Part shown: in pieces, positions 5,352-45,703 of the stretch | Layout: every line of letters starts with the position of its first letter | Position numbering within the stretch: position 1 is the first letter of the stretch | Origin: Armatimonadota bacterium | Lineage (GTDB): Bacteria; Armatimonadota; Zipacnadia; Zipacnadales; UBA11051 | DNA length: 64,000 bases | Assembly (NCBI GenBank): GCA_013178155.1 | Contig: JABLXH010000020.1 | Span: 1-64,000, forward strand | Direction: 5' to 3' | The notes under the pieces: generated by a model | Told to the model about the DNA's origin: nothing | Databases searched by the model: none | Seen by the model: the letters and a program-made list of their open reading frames with translations, nothing else | Position numbers and translations under genes: made by a program

Positions 5352-7574
5352 GTGCCGATGTCTCCTCTCATCGTAGTGCCGCTTGTGTTTGCGCTGGCCC
5401 TGACGGCGCCCTCGGTCGCCCAGAATCTGGCTGCCGGGCGGCCTTGTGATTTCTCGCCGCGGCCTAACTACGGACCCACTACGGAGGGGGACGCCACCGA
5501 TCTGACTGATGGTCGTCTCGGCGAGCGCGAGGATCAGTGCATCTGGTTCGAGCCGCACGTGGTCGGCTGGACCTACCTGCCGCAGATGAACGTGCGAGTG
5601 GATCTGGGACAGGTCGAGCCCATCGGCGAGGTGGTCATGCGCTTCCTGGGCGGCTCGGCGCAACCGGGCCTGGACTTCCCCTGCTTCGTCCGACTGCTGG
5701 TGAGTGATGACGATGAGACCTACTACCAGGTCGCGGAGTACTCGCGCCGGAACCCCGGTGACGACGTCCGCTTCGCTATACCCGCCACCGAGGGCAAGGC
5801 CTGGGTGGCCCCCCTGCGCTTCGCGGACCTGCGCACACGCGGTCGGTATGTTGGTCTGGTTATCGGCGGCACAGCGGTCACATGCTCGGACGAACTGTAT
5901 GTCTACCGGGGGCGCCACGACCCGGCGGCCTACCAGCCGGACCCGGCCCGCGTTGCCGACTTCTCGGTCACCCGTCCACAACTGGCCTTCGTCAAGCCCC
6001 TTCTGACCGTCACCAGCAACATCGCCACCCCGCAGCCAATACTGCTGCTGGACGAGTCGGGCATCGCCCGCACGATCAAGCTGCACCTGGAGATGCCGCC
6101 CGGCATCGAGCTGATGGATGGGCCAGGCGGCGGCATGGGGGTGAAGGTGGACGACGCCCGGACCGAGCGAAGCGAAGCCGGGACGCACTATGCCATGACC
6201 AGCGAGATCTCGGGCCAGTCGAGCCTGCCCTGGGCGAAGCTGACCATGCAGGCCAGTCTTCCGCCGGGAACGCAGACGAGCCTGCGCGCGTGGATCGAAT
6301 GGGAGGGCGGACGGTCGGGGGTGGTGACCGTGCCGGTAACCATAGCCGAGATCCCACCGGCACCCCGGTGCCAGCGCCTGGCGATGGGACTCGGCTGGTG
6401 GCCCCTGGCCGATACCCGCGCCTGGCCCGACGGCCTCCACGCGGCGCGGACCATCGGCCTTAACACGCTGGCCACCTTCACCATGTGGATGGACCCGGAG
6501 GACCAGGCCTTGTGGGACTTCGCCCGGGAAGCGCGGCAGGCAGGCTTCCGGTTGATGAACGTAGACTCCGCCTGGCACGTAATGATGAGCCGCCACAAGG
6601 ACGAACCCGACCTCTTCTGTCAGTTCGCCGACGGCACGACCGGTGCTTCCTTCTGCCCGTCGTATCGCGGTCCCGCCTATGCCGAGGAGATCAAGCGTGT
6701 GGCCGCCGAGAATGCCAGACTACGCCCAGACTTCCTGTCGGAGGACGTAGAGCTGTGGAGCTGGGCGGGACCGCCCGATGTGGACAAATGCACCCGCTGC
6801 CAGGCTGACAAGGCCGCATCCGGCCTCGCGACGTGGGAGGAGTGGAGGTTGGCCAAAGGCTACGAGATGTGGCGGGACCTCCACGACGCGGTGCAGGCGG
6901 CGGTAGCGGCGGCCGGGGGCGAGCCGGTGGAGATCGGAGGCTACGACTGGCGCCCCGGAAAGGACTACCAGTTCTTCTGGCCCTTCGACCGGCTCTACCG
7001 CGACGGCCTGGTGCACAACGCCCAGGTATCCACCTACACCCCCCTCTTCCCCTACCACATAGGACTGCTGGGTGATGAGGTGCGTGGTGACCGACGCCTG
7101 ATGGAGACCACCGAGAATCTGCCGTGGCTCTCACCCGGTGACGCCGGGGTGTTCACCGCCGAGGCACTGCGTTGCGCCATGCTGGAGTGCTTCCTCAACG
7201 GGTCGCGAGGCATTCACTTCTGGAGCAATCGTTACTGGGATGGCGAGTCGTTCCTGGGCTACAACCAGGCGGTGCGGGCCGTGGCCGCTGCGGAGGACAT
7301 CATCATTGACGGCCAACTCTACGACGCTGTTTCGGTCGCCCCACCGGCACGGGTCAGCGCGATGATCCGCGGCAACGACCTCGCCTTGCTCGTGGGTGAG
7401 TACTACGGGCACGAGCCGGTCACGCTGTTGGTGACCCTCGAGGTCCCGGCGGCTTCCGTCGTGACCGATGCGGAGACGGGCGAGCGGCTGGGGCAACTCG
7501 CGGCGGGTCAACAGACTATCGCGGTGAGCCTGGGCGAGCACCGCTCGCGGGTACTGCTGTTGCTGGCTGAATGA
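5352..7574 (+). CDS. Secreted discoidin-domain plus TIM-barrel glycosidase-like protein
   Basis: The 740-residue product has a signal peptide (hydrophobic run ending in APSVAQ) and an N-terminal F5/8 type C (discoidin) beta-sandwich, residues about 25-195, seen in NLAAGRPCDFSP, the DLTDG turn and VRVDLGQVEPIGEVVMRF. A linker beta-sandwich follows, then a barrel-like region from about residue 340 (LGWWPLADTRAWPDG, IGLNTLATFTMWMDP, MNVDSAWHVMMSR, LSEDVELWSWAG) with a CTRCQ pair. The final part (ALRCAMLECFLNGSRGIHFW, then a small beta domain) is typical of uncharacterised GH-like proteins. No family could be assigned. GTG 5352 is preferred: GGGAGG at 5339-5344 is 7 bases upstream. The frame extends further to GTG 5319, directly after the previous stop. 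Confidence 0.75.
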   Translation: MPMSPLIVVPLVFALALTAPSVAQNLAAGRPCDFSPRPNYGPTTEGDATDLTDGRLGEREDQCIWFEPHVVGWTYLPQMNVRVDLGQVEPIGEVVMRFLGGSAQPGLDFPCFVRLLVSDDDETYYQVAEYSRRNPGDDVRFAIPATEGKAWVAPLRFADLRTRGRYVGLVIGGTAVTCSDELYVYRGRHDPAAYQPDPARVADFSVTRPQLAFVKPLLTVTSNIATPQPILLLDESGIARTIKLHLEMPPGIELMDGPGGGMGVKVDDARTERSEAGTHYAMTSEISGQSSLPWAKLTMQASLPPGTQTSLRAWIEWEGGRSGVVTVPVTIAEIPPAPRCQRLAMGLGWWPLADTRAWPDGLHAARTIGLNTLATFTMWMDPEDQALWDFAREARQAGFRLMNVDSAWHVMMSRHKDEPDLFCQFADGTTGASFCPSYRGPAYAEEIKRVAAENARLRPDFLSEDVELWSWAGPPDVDKCTRCQADKAASGLATWEEWRLAKGYEMWRDLHDAVQAAVAAAGGEPVEIGGYDWRPGKDYQFFWPFDRLYRDGLVHNAQVSTYTPLFPYHIGLLGDEVRGDRRLMETTENLPWLSPGDAGVFTAEALRCAMLECFLNGSRGIHFWSNRYWDGESFLGYNQAVRAVAAAEDIIIDGQLYDAVSVAPPARVSAMIRGNDLALLVGEYYGHEPVTLLVTLEVPAASVVTDAETGERLGQLAAGQQTIAVSLGEHRSRVLLLLAE

Positions 7575-39984: not shown

Positions 39985-40632
39985 ATGGGACTGCTCATGG
40001 TCCGAAGTCAGACGCTTGCGGCACTGTCCCTGGGGCTGGTGGCATTCTGCCACCCCCTGGCGGAATGCCGGGCCATGACTCTGGTGGACCGCTTCCAGGC
40101 TGACGAGACCGGAGCGGGGCCGGCCGCCGTCCGCCTGGCGCGCCGGGCGCTGGAGGAGTACTGCCTTCGTCGCCAGCGCATCAGCGTGCCAGCCGGGCTG
40201 CCACCGTTGCTGGCCCAGCGGGGTGCGGTCTTTGTCAGCGCCCAAGCGGCCGGCGGGGCCCCGCGCTGCTGCATGGGCAGCCTCTACCCCAGGGGCGCGA
40301 CCCTGGCCGCCGACATCGTCGAGATGGCCTGCCGCGCTGCCGCCCATGACCTCAGGTTCGCCCCGCTCCGACCCGATGAACTCCCGGGGCTGCGGGTCAT
40401 CGTGTCGGTGCTGGACCCGCCCGAGCCCATCGCCGACCCCTGGACGCTTGATCCGCTTACCGATGGCCTGGCGGCCCGCGGGCCACGGCGTACGGGGGTT
40501 GTCCTGCCCGGCGAGACCGGGATGCGCGAACGCTTCGTGCGCTGGGCGCAGGTGCGCGCCGACCTGCAGCCGGGGGAGCAGGCCGTTTACCTGCGCCTGC
40601 GAGCCGTCCGCTTCATCGAGCCGGAAGGATAG
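39985..40632 (+). CDS. AMMECR1-domain protein with predicted signal peptide
   Basis: A 215-residue protein of the AMMECR1 family. The core has LARRALEEYC, AVFVSAQAAGG, the LRGCIG-type signature changed to RCCMGS (residues 94-99), LYPRGATLAADI, RFAPLRPDELPGLRVIVSVLDPPEPI and WTLDPLTDGLAA. The family is widespread and normally cytoplasmic; its biochemical function is not established. The first about 30 residues (hydrophobic LAALSLGLVAFCHPLAECRA) look like a signal peptide, which would be unusual for an AMMECR1 protein. GGAG lies 6 bases before ATG 39985. It is followed after 81 bases by an exported alpha-2-macroglobulin, so both may act in the envelope. Confidence 0.82.
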   Translation: MGLLMVRSQTLAALSLGLVAFCHPLAECRAMTLVDRFQADETGAGPAAVRLARRALEEYCLRRQRISVPAGLPPLLAQRGAVFVSAQAAGGAPRCCMGSLYPRGATLAADIVEMACRAAAHDLRFAPLRPDELPGLRVIVSVLDPPEPIADPWTLDPLTDGLAARGPRRTGVVLPGETGMRERFVRWAQVRADLQPGEQAVYLRLRAVRFIEPEG

Positions 40633-40713
40633 CCGACAACGAGGCCACTAAGGCGGTGTCACGCCAGACCCACCAGTCGCGCCGCCGTGAATGCCAGTCT
40701 GGAGGCAAGAGCC

Positions 40714-43700
40714 ATGTACAGGACAGTGCCGAGCGTCGTTGCCATCCTGTTGCTGGGGACGGTGAGCCTGCCGGCCCTGGCTGCCTCGGCCCAGGCGCCG
40801 AATCTGAGTGTCGAGGTCTACCAGCGCTCCTTTGCCAGTGGCAAGGAGGTGCAACTGGCCCTCTCGCTATACAACCTCAAGCAGGTCAGGGTGACCATCT
40901 ACCCGGTGGCTCTGGAGAGCCTGGCCCCAAACGCCCGCGCGGTCAGCCTCGATGACCCCAAGACCCCCGGAAGCCTTCCGTACCTGCTGCAGCGCCTGGA
41001 CCTGAGCGGCCGTCGCCCGGCAGCGCAGTGGACGCCCAAGCTCAAGGACTTCTACCCGGACTCTTGGAACGAGCTGCCGGCCAAGGTGCCGACGGCGCTG
41101 GCCCCCGGAGTGTATGTCGCCAGTGTCACCGGCGGCGGCATCGAGAAGCGCGCCTGGTTCGCGGTGTCGGGGCGAGCGCTGCTGGTGAAACGCTCCCCGA
41201 ATGAGATCCTGGCCTGGGTGGTGAACGCGACCACCGGCCAACCGGCCACCGGGCTGCCCGTGGCCGTCTACAACGAGCAGGGCAAGCAGACCGTGGCCAC
41301 CACCACCGGCGAGGGCCTGGTGAAACTGCCGGCGCCGCCGCCCGGCCAGGCTGCGTGGGTGGCTGCGCAGAAGGGCGACCCCGCCTTCGCCCTCGCCAAC
41401 TCCCCCGGGGTTCCCGACCCCTATGCCGCCTACCTCTACACCGACCGCCCCATCTACCGCCCCGGCCACCTGGTGCGGTTCCGGGGCACGATCCGCGCCC
41501 GCCAGGGGCGTGACTACGGCCTGGTGCCGCCGGGCATCGAGACCGTGAGGACCGAGATCAAGACCCGGGGCGGCATGACGGTGTACGAGCAGGACCTGCC
41601 ACTGAATGAGTGGGGGACCTTCAGTGGCGAGTTCCAGCTAGGGCCCGAGCCGCCACTGGGAAGCTACGAGATCGTCACTACCGTGGGCGAGGGGAAGGAC
41701 AAGACACAGTTCTACCACACCTTCGAGGTCGAGGCCTACCGCAAGCCGGAGTTCACGGTGGATGTGACCATCCCCAGGGCCCACTATCTGGGCGGTGAGG
41801 AGACCATCCCGGTCACCTTCGCGGCCAAGTACTTCTTCGGCAGCCCGGTCTCCGGCGGCAAGCTGAACTACACCATCAGCTTCTCGCCTCAGGGTGGCGT
41901 GCCCGAGCCGATCCTGCGGGCAGCGGGGCGGGGCGACCTGGCCATGGGCGAGATCGAGTCCGAGATCAAGGGGCAGGCCCGGCTGGACAGGGACGGCAAG
42001 TACACCCTTGAGGTGAAGACCCTGCGCCTGCCGATGGACCGGATGATGTACGTGCAGGCCGAGGTCAGCGAGACGGCGCTGCGGCCCCAGACGGCCAGTG
42101 GCAGCGTCCTCATCACCGCCGCCGCCTTTCGCTTGAATGTCAGCCTGGACAAGCATACCTATCAGGCCGGGGAGCAGGCGCAGGTGCGTATCAGCGCCCA
42201 CGACTATAACGGCAAACCCGTCTCCACTGCCGTCCAGCTCACCTTCACCGAGAACCTCGTGGACCGCGAAGGCCGCTCGTACCGGGAGACCACGAAGCAG
42301 ACCCTGGAGACCAGCAGCGAGGGCGTGGTGACCACACAGCTTGGCCTCAAACGCCTGGGCTACCATGAGATCGAGGTCTGGGCCCTGGACGCCGGAGGTA
42401 ACGCCGTCTACGCCAACACGCGAGTGAACGTGGTCAAGAAGATCGAGCAGCGCTGGCCCTCGCTGGCGTTGAGCAGCGACCGCTATGAGTACCAGGCCGG
42501 CGACACGGCGACCATTACCGGAGTCACCGACCAACTCGGGGCGTGGCTGCTGGTGACCGTCGAGGGCGAGAAGGTCTACTCGTCCAAGGTCTGCCGGCTC
42601 CAGGACCACAACTTCCGGCTGCAGGTTCCCCTGGTCGCGGCCTACGAGCCCAATGTCGAGGTGCGCGCGGCGCTGGTGCGGAAGGGTGAGCTCACGGCGT
42701 CCAGCCTGACCCTCCGGGTGCCCCCGAAGCACCGCCGGCTGCAGGTCATCCTGGCCCCAGACAAGGAGCGCTATCAGCCGGCCGAGACCGCCACTTACAC
42801 CATTACGACGCGGGACGCCCAGGGCCGGGGCGTGCCGGCCGAAGTGGGCCTTGGGGTGGTGGACGCCAGCGTCTATGAGATTCGCGCCGACAACACGCCG
42901 GACCCGTTCGACGCCTGGTGGGGTGACCGCCCGATCCTGGTGGAGACCGACTTCTCCCTGGCGAACCTGTACCCCGGTGGGGCCTATCAGCGACTGGCGG
43001 CCAAAGCGCCGCCGGCACCAGCCATGGCGGCGGCCGACCGCGCCGAGGCCAAGGCTGAGGCCGAGGGCGAGGCCCCGCGCATCCGCAAGTTCTTCACCGA
43101 CACCGCCTTCTGGGGACCGTCCCTGGTGACCGGCGCCGACGGTTCGGCCCAGGCCACGCTGACCATCCCCGACAACCTGACCACCTGGCGCGCCACCGCT
43201 CGCGGCCTGACCAGGGCCACCCAGGCGGGCGAGACCCGCAAGGACGTAGTCGTGACGCTGCCGCTGCTGGTGCGGCTGACGCTGCCGCGCTTCTATGTCC
43301 AGGGCGATGAGGCCACCGCCGCGGCGACCGTGCACAACTACACGGGCGAGCAGCGCACCGTGAAGGTGACCTTGAGCGCCGAGGGGGCGGAGCTCCTGGA
43401 AGCCCCCGAGCGGACCATCACCCTCGCCAATGACGGCATCCAGCGCCTCACGTGGAAGATCAGAGTGACCGGGCCAAAGCAGGCGCGGTTCCTGGTCAGT
43501 GCCGACGGCGGCCCCGGCGGCAAGGACGCCATGGAGACCACGCTGCCCGTCCAGGCGGACGCGATGGAGGAGGTTGGCGCTGTCGCCGGCATGACCGAAC
43601 AGAGTGACACGGCGACCCTCCACCTGCCCGCCAACGCCATACCGGGCAGCGGGATGGTGGAGGTCACGCTGTCACCGTCGCTGGCCGGGCCGATCTTTGA

Positions 43701-45183
43701 GGCCCTGGACTACCTGACCACCTACCCCTATGGCTGCGCCGAACAGACTATGGACAGCTTCCTGCCCGATGTGGTGGTCGCCGATACCCTCAAGCGCCTC
43801 GGCCCGCAACGCCCGCGGCCGCCGATGCTGGACCGCTACGTCAACTTCGGGCTGCAGAAGCTCATGCGCTACCAGCATGACGACGGCGGCTGGCACTGGT
43901 GGGAGTTCGACGAGAGCGACCCGTATATCAGCGCCTACATCTGCACCGGCCTGAAGATCGCCGGCCAGGCGGGCTACGTCACCGCCCGGGGGCCGCTGCA
44001 GCGCGGCGTCGAGTACCTCAAGGATGCACTCGCGCAGGAGGAGTACCGCGACGCAAGGGCTTACCTGCTGTGGGCCCTGGCCTTCTGCGACATCTGGAAT
44101 GGCGCTGAGGACCTGGCCCCGGCCCTCGCGGCGGCCAAGGCCCTGCATGCCGACCGCGACAAGCTCAACCTCTTCAACCGGGCCAACCTGGCCCTGGCGC
44201 TGCGCTACCTGTCGCGGGCGCGTGGGGTCAGCGCCGCTGAGACCCAGGTCCTGGCCGCCAACGCCACGGCCATGGCTGCCGACCTCGAAGCGGCCGCCAA
44301 GCCCGTCGGCAGCGGGGCCTTCTGGGGGGCCGACGGGACCTACCGGTACTCGTGGCTCGACAACAACGTCGAGGTCACCGCGCAGGTCCTCTCGGCGCTA
44401 TTGGCCCTGAAGCCGGAGAGCCCACAGATACTGCCCGCCGTGCGCTGGCTCATGGCGCAGCGGCAGGGCAAGCAGTGGACGAGCACCAAGGACACCGCGG
44501 CGGCAGTCATGGTGCTGACGAAGTACCTGGAGGGCGCCAACGAACTCAAGCCGGACTTCACCGCCCGCGTCTACAGCGGCGACAAGCTGGTGCAGGAGAC
44601 GAGGTTCACAGCAGACGACATCTTCAAGGATCCGGTCAAGGTGGCAATCCCGGCCATGGACCTGCAGACCGGGGACAACGCCATCCGCATCGAGAAGTCG
44701 GGCACGGGCAATGTCTACTGGACGGCGCACTTGATGTACCTGACGCCCAGCGACCAGGTGAAGCCCTCGACCGGCGTGATGGAGATGACGCGGCAGTACC
44801 ACCTGCCCGCCGAGGACCCCACCACCGCCGGGGTACAGAAACCGGGCGACGTCATCCAGGTCGAGGTGACACTCCGCAGCCATGAGAACCTGCGCTACGC
44901 GCTGCTGCAGGAGCCTATCCCCGCGGGGTGCGAGGTGCTGGACTCCGGGGAGGACCATATCCCATACATCGGCTGCGACCGGCGAGAGGTGTGGGACAAC
45001 CGGCTGGTGCTGTATTTCGACTACCTGCCGAAGGGTGAGGTGAGCTTCACTTACGCCCTGCGAGCCGAGGCTCCCGGCGCCTTCCGGATCCTGCCCAGCC
45101 AGGCCGAACTCATGTACTTCCCCGAAGTACGGGGCAACGCCCGGCCGGTGCGCATGCAGATCGCCGATACGACGGAGGAGTAG
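40714..45183 (+). CDS. Bacterial alpha-2-macroglobulin family protein
   Basis: A 1489-residue exported protein (signal peptide ending near LPALAAS). It has serial macroglobulin domains, with the family block YLYTDRPIYRPGHLVRFRG and YLGGEETIPV, a bait-like low-complexity stretch near residues 770-800 (RAEAKAEAEGEAP), the WRATARGLT-type segment, and the thioester motif PYGCAEQT with Cys near residue 1008, Glu and Gln intact. The helical thioester domain continues to about residue 1300 and a C-terminal macroglobulin or receptor-like domain follows. Such proteins trap proteases by covalent thioester attack in the periplasm. No lipobox is seen. The usual bacterial partner, penicillin-binding protein 1C, is absent; a TlpA-like gene follows instead. 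ATG 40714 has GGAGG 8 bases upstream. Confidence 0.92.
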   Translation: MYRTVPSVVAILLLGTVSLPALAASAQAPNLSVEVYQRSFASGKEVQLALSLYNLKQVRVTIYPVALESLAPNARAVSLDDPKTPGSLPYLLQRLDLSGRRPAAQWTPKLKDFYPDSWNELPAKVPTALAPGVYVASVTGGGIEKRAWFAVSGRALLVKRSPNEILAWVVNATTGQPATGLPVAVYNEQGKQTVATTTGEGLVKLPAPPPGQAAWVAAQKGDPAFALANSPGVPDPYAAYLYTDRPIYRPGHLVRFRGTIRARQGRDYGLVPPGIETVRTEIKTRGGMTVYEQDLPLNEWGTFSGEFQLGPEPPLGSYEIVTTVGEGKDKTQFYHTFEVEAYRKPEFTVDVTIPRAHYLGGEETIPVTFAAKYFFGSPVSGGKLNYTISFSPQGGVPEPILRAAGRGDLAMGEIESEIKGQARLDRDGKYTLEVKTLRLPMDRMMYVQAEVSETALRPQTASGSVLITAAAFRLNVSLDKHTYQAGEQAQVRISAHDYNGKPVSTAVQLTFTENLVDREGRSYRETTKQTLETSSEGVVTTQLGLKRLGYHEIEVWALDAGGNAVYANTRVNVVKKIEQRWPSLALSSDRYEYQAGDTATITGVTDQLGAWLLVTVEGEKVYSSKVCRLQDHNFRLQVPLVAAYEPNVEVRAALVRKGELTASSLTLRVPPKHRRLQVILAPDKERYQPAETATYTITTRDAQGRGVPAEVGLGVVDASVYEIRADNTPDPFDAWWGDRPILVETDFSLANLYPGGAYQRLAAKAPPAPAMAAADRAEAKAEAEGEAPRIRKFFTDTAFWGPSLVTGADGSAQATLTIPDNLTTWRATARGLTRATQAGETRKDVVVTLPLLVRLTLPRFYVQGDEATAAATVHNYTGEQRTVKVTLSAEGAELLEAPERTITLANDGIQRLTWKIRVTGPKQARFLVSADGGPGGKDAMETTLPVQADAMEEVGAVAGMTEQSDTATLHLPANAIPGSGMVEVTLSPSLAGPIFEALDYLTTYPYGCAEQTMDSFLPDVVVADTLKRLGPQRPRPPMLDRYVNFGLQKLMRYQHDDGGWHWWEFDESDPYISAYICTGLKIAGQAGYVTARGPLQRGVEYLKDALAQEEYRDARAYLLWALAFCDIWNGAEDLAPALAAAKALHADRDKLNLFNRANLALALRYLSRARGVSAAETQVLAANATAMAADLEAAAKPVGSGAFWGADGTYRYSWLDNNVEVTAQVLSALLALKPESPQILPAVRWLMAQRQGKQWTSTKDTAAAVMVLTKYLEGANELKPDFTARVYSGDKLVQETRFTADDIFKDPVKVAIPAMDLQTGDNAIRIEKSGTGNVYWTAHLMYLTPSDQVKPSTGVMEMTRQYHLPAEDPTTAGVQKPGDVIQVEVTLRSHENLRYALLQEPIPAGCEVLDSGEDHIPYIGCDRREVWDNRLVLYFDYLPKGEVSFTYALRAEAPGAFRILPSQAELMYFPEVRGNARPVRMQIADTTEE

Positions 45184-45187
45184 GGCC

Positions 45188-45703
45188 TTGGACGTGCGTG
45201 CGGCGTGGTTGCTTTGCCTAACGGCAGGGCCTGTCGCAGTCGCGGCGGAGGAGCCAGCAGGCCCTCCGCCGCCGCGTCTGGGCGTGACCGTGGGCAATGC
45301 CACGCTGGTGGACATGGCCCAGCGCCCGCGCCACTTGGCCGAGTTCACCGCACCTGTTCTGGTGCTCAACTTCTGGGCATTCTGGTGTGACACCTGGAAG
45401 AAGCAGTTGCCGCAGCTCGTGGAGCTTTCGCGACGGCAGGACGAACTCGGTTTTCAGTTGGTGACCATCAGCGTGGACGGGCAGTGGAGCGATGCTGCTC
45501 GACGGTACCTGGGCGTGGCCCCGCTGCCCTTCGCAGTTCGGCTGGACGGCCGTCGGGCGCTCAGCGGCCCGCTGGGTATCCGCCGCGTGCCGACCGTGCT
45601 GGTCCTTGACCGCGAGCGCCGCGTGACCTGGCTGCACGAGGCCTACCCGGGCAACCCGGCGGTCCTGCGGGCCATCCGGGCGGCGCAGCGGCCGCAGCGA
45701 TAG
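45188..45703 (+). CDS. TlpA-like thioredoxin-fold protein lacking the second active-site cysteine
   Basis: A 171-residue exported protein with a TlpA/AhpC-TSA-type thioredoxin fold: LNFWAFWCDTWKKQLPQLVEL, then LVTISVDGQWSDA and the cis-proline region IRRVPTVLVLDRERRVTW. Where TlpA proteins have CxxC, it has WCDTW (Cys67, Trp70), so it cannot form the usual disulfide. It may be a binding or mixed-disulfide protein. TTG 45188 is preferred as start because GGAGGAG at 45174-45180 lies 7 bases upstream, overlapping the end of the A2M gene; GTG 45194 would be 13 bases away. It follows the A2M stop by 4 bases, implying co-transcription and perhaps translational coupling. Confidence 0.83.
   Translation: MDVRAAWLLCLTAGPVAVAAEEPAGPPPPRLGVTVGNATLVDMAQRPRHLAEFTAPVLVLNFWAFWCDTWKKQLPQLVELSRRQDELGFQLVTISVDGQWSDAARRYLGVAPLPFAVRLDGRRALSGPLGIRRVPTVLVLDRERRVTWLHEAYPGNPAVLRAIRAAQRPQR

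Follow-up and report, generated by a model that had tools for sequence, protein, structure and literature searches.

Bacterial alpha-2-macroglobulins (A2Ms) have been described in two settings, the type I yfhM-pbpC arrangement (E. coli yfhM-pbpC; Salmonella SaA2M) and the type II mag/yfa operons (P. aeruginosa mag; E. coli yfaPQSTA). As far as could be tested here, AMMECR1 and thioredoxin genes are absent from both, and the E. coli yfa partners are annotated as DUF2135/2300/1175/2138. A PBP1C neighbour of type I A2Ms is frequent but not obligatory. AMMECR1 proteins are conserved from archaea to humans and have no established activity. In SaA2M and in ECAM from E. coli, a Tyr pocket and an EXMY motif serve as protection of the thioester (PMC4498604). 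MagD, which has no thioester, still traps protease and binds its operon partners, and the MagA/B/F proteins that accompany it are a precedent for an A2M partner complex (PMC5764988). The locus described here, in which an A2M gene lies between genes for an AMMECR1 protein and a thioredoxin-fold protein, is best read as an A2M operon of a third kind, which would guard the envelope and has a recurrent wall-enzyme context. It would add a third operon type, with a diagnostic thioredoxin variant, to the two A2M systems already known from bacteria.

The DNA analysed, referred to below as the window, is a stretch of 64,000 nucleotides from an Armatimonadota bacterium. The three genes are co-directional, span positions 39985-45703 and are separated by intergenic gaps of 81 and 4 bases (Table 1). 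The ORF list and Pfam matches confirm these genes, positions and gaps as given in a preliminary description of this DNA, and the apparent signal peptides it had reported are present as a hydrophobic leader on each protein. The best start of the A2M gene is the ATG at 40714, a short way behind GGAGG, and the thioredoxin gene starts with TTG at 45188, behind GGAGGAG. For AMMECR1, the window alone would also allow an internal start at ATG 40075 that deletes the leader; this start was rejected because every close homologue whose N-terminus is complete has a leader. Convergent with the trio lies a gene for a 1311-aa glycoside-hydrolase-like protein with a weak GH5 match (window:45713-49648, minus strand).

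Table 1. Features of the AMMECR1-A2M-thioredoxin locus in the window
Feature	Position	Strand	Basis
Exported AMMECR1-domain protein, 215 aa	39985..40632	+	ORF; Pfam PF01871
AMMECR1 predicted signal peptide, approximate, cleavage near ECRA/MTL	39985..40074	+	conserved hydrophobic segment; pLDDT low at 1-30
AMMECR1 RCCMG motif (Cys96 = conserved family cysteine; canonical LRGCIG)	40264..40278	+	
A2M, 1489 aa, predicted signal peptide	40714..45183	+	Pfam domains; full-length relatives 50-61%
A2M thioester motif PYGCAEQT	43726..43749	+	invariant in 11/11 near relatives
A2M second conserved Cys (IPAGC), MG10 domain	44929..44931	+	invariant in first-branch A2Ms
One-cysteine TlpA/ResA-like thioredoxin-fold protein, 171 aa, with leader	45188..45703	+	Pfam, PDB profile search
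Thioredoxin WCDTW motif, Trp for resolving Cys of CxxC	45383..45397	+	

Among 291 genomes of Armatimonadota, a phylum mostly known from MAGs, neighbouring AMMECR1, A2M and thioredoxin genes were found in 32 genomes from 12 families, always with a WCxTW thioredoxin. These comprise 19 first-branch and 13 second-branch genomes; the trio is contiguous in 28 and split at contig ends in 4. The same class (Ca. Zipacnadia/WS1) is represented by 46 genomes. Besides the window genome, 11 of them carry the close AMMECR1 subfamily, and in 11/11 it is followed by the A2M and then the thioredoxin, once across a contig break. A profile search of the 291 genomes added seven first-branch genomes and led to the second branch with its 13 genomes. 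A scan of 84,980 bacterial and archaeal species genomes with two strict motifs, which divergent forms elsewhere could escape, returned 14 loci, every one in Armatimonadota; the A2M follows at all 14, and so does the thioredoxin behind it unless the contig ends first. The gene order is AMMECR1-A2M-thioredoxin except in G224, where it is A2M-thioredoxin-AMMECR1, and in the 11 first-branch trios whose gaps were measured these lie between -4 and +201 bases. When all ORFs around the loci were clustered, only the three trio families recurred once antisense shadows and stray matches were set aside, and no conserved fourth gene was found. The view that three unrelated exported genes came together by chance, without a common function, could draw on G007, where a first-branch A2M is kept with neither AMMECR1 nor thioredoxin adjoining. 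It is refuted by the recurrence of the same trio in 32 genomes and 12 families, with protein identity falling to about 30% and non-conserved flanks. The adjacency across families, together with the conserved leaders, strongly supports the three genes as one module, as had been proposed. An MsrA-like gene (methionine sulfoxide reductase) lies beside three closely related trios (L115:9743-10444, minus strand; L117; L118), with a leader on the L115 protein, and one lies farther from the trio in L140:11726-12169 (minus strand).

The window A2M was described beforehand as a full protein with an intact thioester, and this holds: it contains MG2, MG3, BRD, A2M, TED and bMG10 domains in Pfam and the sequence YPYGCAEQT. 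Its protective pocket is also intact, with a Tyr pair just before the Cys (TYPYGCAEQ) and ELMY in the C-terminal MG domain, and the pocket residues match those of SaA2M and ECAM (PMC4498604). With type I A2Ms the window protein shares the CxEQ thioester, the MG2/BRD/TED/bMG10 domains, the Tyr pocket, EXMY and export. It differs in its length (about 1490 against 1650 aa), in apparently having no lipobox, in its partners, AMMECR1 and the WCDTW thioredoxin, and in having no PBP1C in operon or genome. The leaders of the trio A2Ms look like ordinary signal peptides, with no lipobox apparent by eye. A missing PBP1C neighbour had been noted as unusual; none is adjacent, but the absence is not specific to the locus, as the BiPBP_C (PBP1C-type) domain was found nowhere in the window genome. 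Like the type II operons, the trio has dedicated operon partners, and the second-branch A2Ms resemble type II A2Ms in being mostly without a thioester. In contrast, the window A2M has a thioester, and the yfa partners are not AMMECR1 or a thioredoxin. In the A2M tree the trio proteins form one group (SH-aLRT 93), beside the A2Ms of SpoIID-AMMECR1-A2M-VanW and A2M-VanW clusters, and the A2M and AMMECR1 trees have matching groups. The set had been suggested to be unrecognised, in line with which no report of a bacterial AMMECR1-A2M link was found among the open-access papers searched and none of the three proteins matched the PADLOC anti-phage defence models. In our estimate the chance is somewhat below even that the trio represents an ancient class of bacterial A2M system, the third one and so far seen only in Armatimonadota; its exported AMMECR1 protein, as an enzyme, and its single-thiol WCDTW thioredoxin would then act on the A2M or the adjacent wall.

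Conserved cysteines in all three proteins and the intact thioester of the window A2M could mean that the two partner proteins work on the thioester Cys, maturing or protecting it through reduction, thioester formation or repair after oxidation. This explanation is improbable given how the thioester is distributed. Among the 13 second-branch A2Ms, one of which (L154) was read across a frame break, the CxEQ motif occurs in G224 only, and one first-branch A2M also lacks the thioester; the A2M of G066 (L113) reads YPYGDTEQT, with Asp for the thioester Cys, whereas its close relatives G067 and G068 keep CAEQT. The thioester-less loci retain their partners, and the AMMECR1 Cys and WCDTW remain. An extra AMMECR1 Cys (RCC instead of RTC) was also considered as a residue coupled to the thioester. 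It does not track the thioester and was ruled out, G067 and G068 having RTC with an intact thioester. Because most second-branch A2Ms lost the thioester and kept both partners, helping the thioester to mature is not the main task of these partners. This loss resembles the thioester-less state of MagD (PMC5764988) and shows that a thioester can disappear within one conserved A2M operon. The L154 frame appears broken at 7362-7367, through a sequencing error or as a pseudogene.

The product of the third gene matches Redoxin/AhpC-TSA in Pfam and the ResA family in a PDB profile search, and its AF2 model has a pLDDT of 85. The TlpA/ResA fold is present, as is the cis-Pro loop, the latter by sequence position only. 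The periplasmic thioredoxins ResA, TlpA and DsbE have the same fold, leader, WC motif and cis-Pro-Thr. Their CxxC active site, however, is absent from the window protein, where it reads C-D-T-W without a resolving Cys at that place, and FWCDTW holds the single Cys of the mature part. With Trp for the second Cys there can therefore be no ordinary CxxC disulfide cycle; the protein would probably act in single-thiol binding or as a mixed-disulfide protein. The earlier label of one-cysteine thioredoxin is exact for the window protein, but some first-branch relatives have another Cys further along, which is non-conserved and absent from the window. W-C-D-T-W is found in every trio in which the gene is present, apart from one WCETW and one WCCTW. 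A six-frame scan for WCDTW in the 291 genomes gave about 66 sites, and the reversed pattern gave roughly 26. Of the WCDTW sites, 30 belong to trio genes and about 16 were left unread. All 20 non-trio sites that were read are chance occurrences, which rules out WCDTW as a general motif. Among the sites checked, WCxTW thus appears diagnostic of the trio thioredoxins.

The second-branch gene joins the thioredoxin domain to a polysaccharide deacetylase (PF01522) in which TFDD and HxxxH motifs occur, and wall enzymes also accompany related genes elsewhere. Two other Armatimonadota families contain SpoIID-exported AMMECR1-A2M-VanW clusters (L119:1886-8919; L121, whose A2M has no thioester). A SpoIID-like gene is immediately followed by an exported AMMECR1 without an A2M in L045:563-2222, L130, L132 and L133. 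A2M-VanW pairs occur in L073, L075, L077, L078 and L079, and upstream of four of these five lies a membrane protein of ~555 aa without a Pfam match (L073:1903-3558). The deacetylase fusion and the SpoIID/VanW contexts suggest that the trio system may take part in wall maintenance. They also favor the strongest rival to an A2M complex, a machine for modifying the wall or polysaccharides, with the A2M as a possible scaffold or adhesin and AMMECR1 as a possible enzyme working with the deacetylase, the lytic SpoIID and VanW. However, the window-branch operon contains no deacetylase, SpoIID or VanW, and its A2M keeps the bait-region and thioester domains, which argues for protease trapping; we regard such a machine as rather unlikely.

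We give about even chances to the trio being one Armatimonadota operon that makes an extracytoplasmic, protease-trapping A2M complex that includes two exported partners dedicated to it. From the operon, the leaders, the conservation of domains and motifs and the agreement of the trees, all of which are directly observed, we infer a physical complex with protease trapping, single-thiol chemistry and wall maintenance. In such a complex, the A2M would trap proteases that reach the envelope, the bait region being cut and the protease enclosed, and A2Ms that retain the thioester, the window protein among them, would hold the protease covalently. The exported AMMECR1 and the WCxTW thioredoxin may bind, stabilize or service the A2M and the surrounding wall, accompanying it much as MagA/B/F accompany MagD and PBP1C accompanies YfhM. 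Counting against the A2M complex are G007, with its A2M without partners, and G224, with its different gene order and an AMMECR1 that shows no clear leader. The chemistry of A2M and the NodB, SpoIID and VanW neighbours make a periplasmic defence or envelope repair function, as initially proposed, plausible.

The window AMMECR1 protein scores 97 bits against PF01871 (gathering cut-off 25; E 9.8e-28). Its AF2 model has a pLDDT of 89, low at residues 1-30, and Foldseek matches the model to PDB 1vaj (PH0010) with a TM of 0.71 and E of 3.9e-16. A leader on a member of this family might have been a start-site artefact, but the hydrophobic segment is conserved: among the 18 close homologues, those with a full N-terminus have a hydrophobic leader, ending in small residues, before the AMMECR1 domain. 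Export is predicted from this conservation and from hydropathy. The maximum N-terminal hydropathy over 12 residues is at least 1.58 in the measurable AMMECR1s of trios and SpoIID pairs, except for G224 (0.08), which has no clear leader, and at most 1.29 in cytoplasmic AMMECR1s, leaving aside one artefactual value caused by a membrane protein fused upstream of the domain. The second-branch leaders are short.

Every AMMECR1 protein of the trio set has the family Cys, the first-branch proteins mostly have RCCMG in place of canonical LRGCIG, and the segment after LP departs from the canonical LPQVAxEWGWD...KAGL. With the AMMECR1 family and AmmeMemoRadiSam protein A (PF01871, TIGR04335; PDB 1vaj, 1zq7, 1wsc) the trio AMMECR1 shares the fold and the C-x-G core motif; it differs in being exported, in its RCCMG and LPxE signatures, in its A2M partner and in the loss of the WGWD and CxKAGL segment. 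The AMMECR1 domain itself, and a 527-aa MEMO-AMMECR1-like protein in the same genome, might point to an exported version of the AmmeMemoRadiSam system. Genomic context largely refutes this very improbable reading: the recurrent trio neighbours include neither a MEMO nor a radical SAM gene, the window protein scores 82.3 against TIGR04335, below the cut-off of 99, and the clade is separate. In a tree that includes the window orthologue L034 rather than the window protein, the AMMECR1s of both trio branches and the SpoIID-linked ones form a group (SH-aLRT 86) that excludes the cytoplasmic and MEMO-fused ones, so the exported proteins are, by sequence, a separate subfamily. Tied to an A2M, whose mechanism is known, this subfamily offers a concrete partner and compartment to test; if the assignment is true, it would be the first extracytoplasmic role and defined partner for AMMECR1 proteins.

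Two further AMMECR1 genes lie elsewhere in the window genome. The 527-aa protein (G000:C192; L001, L051) is probably a MEMO-AMMECR1 fusion, its MEMO part being assigned by resemblance, and L030 encodes a similar fusion with an N-terminal hydrophobic segment. In L128 and other f26 genomes, frames of 380-400 aa apparently fuse a PlsY-like membrane protein to an AMMECR1 domain in which the motif Cys is replaced (RGLMG).
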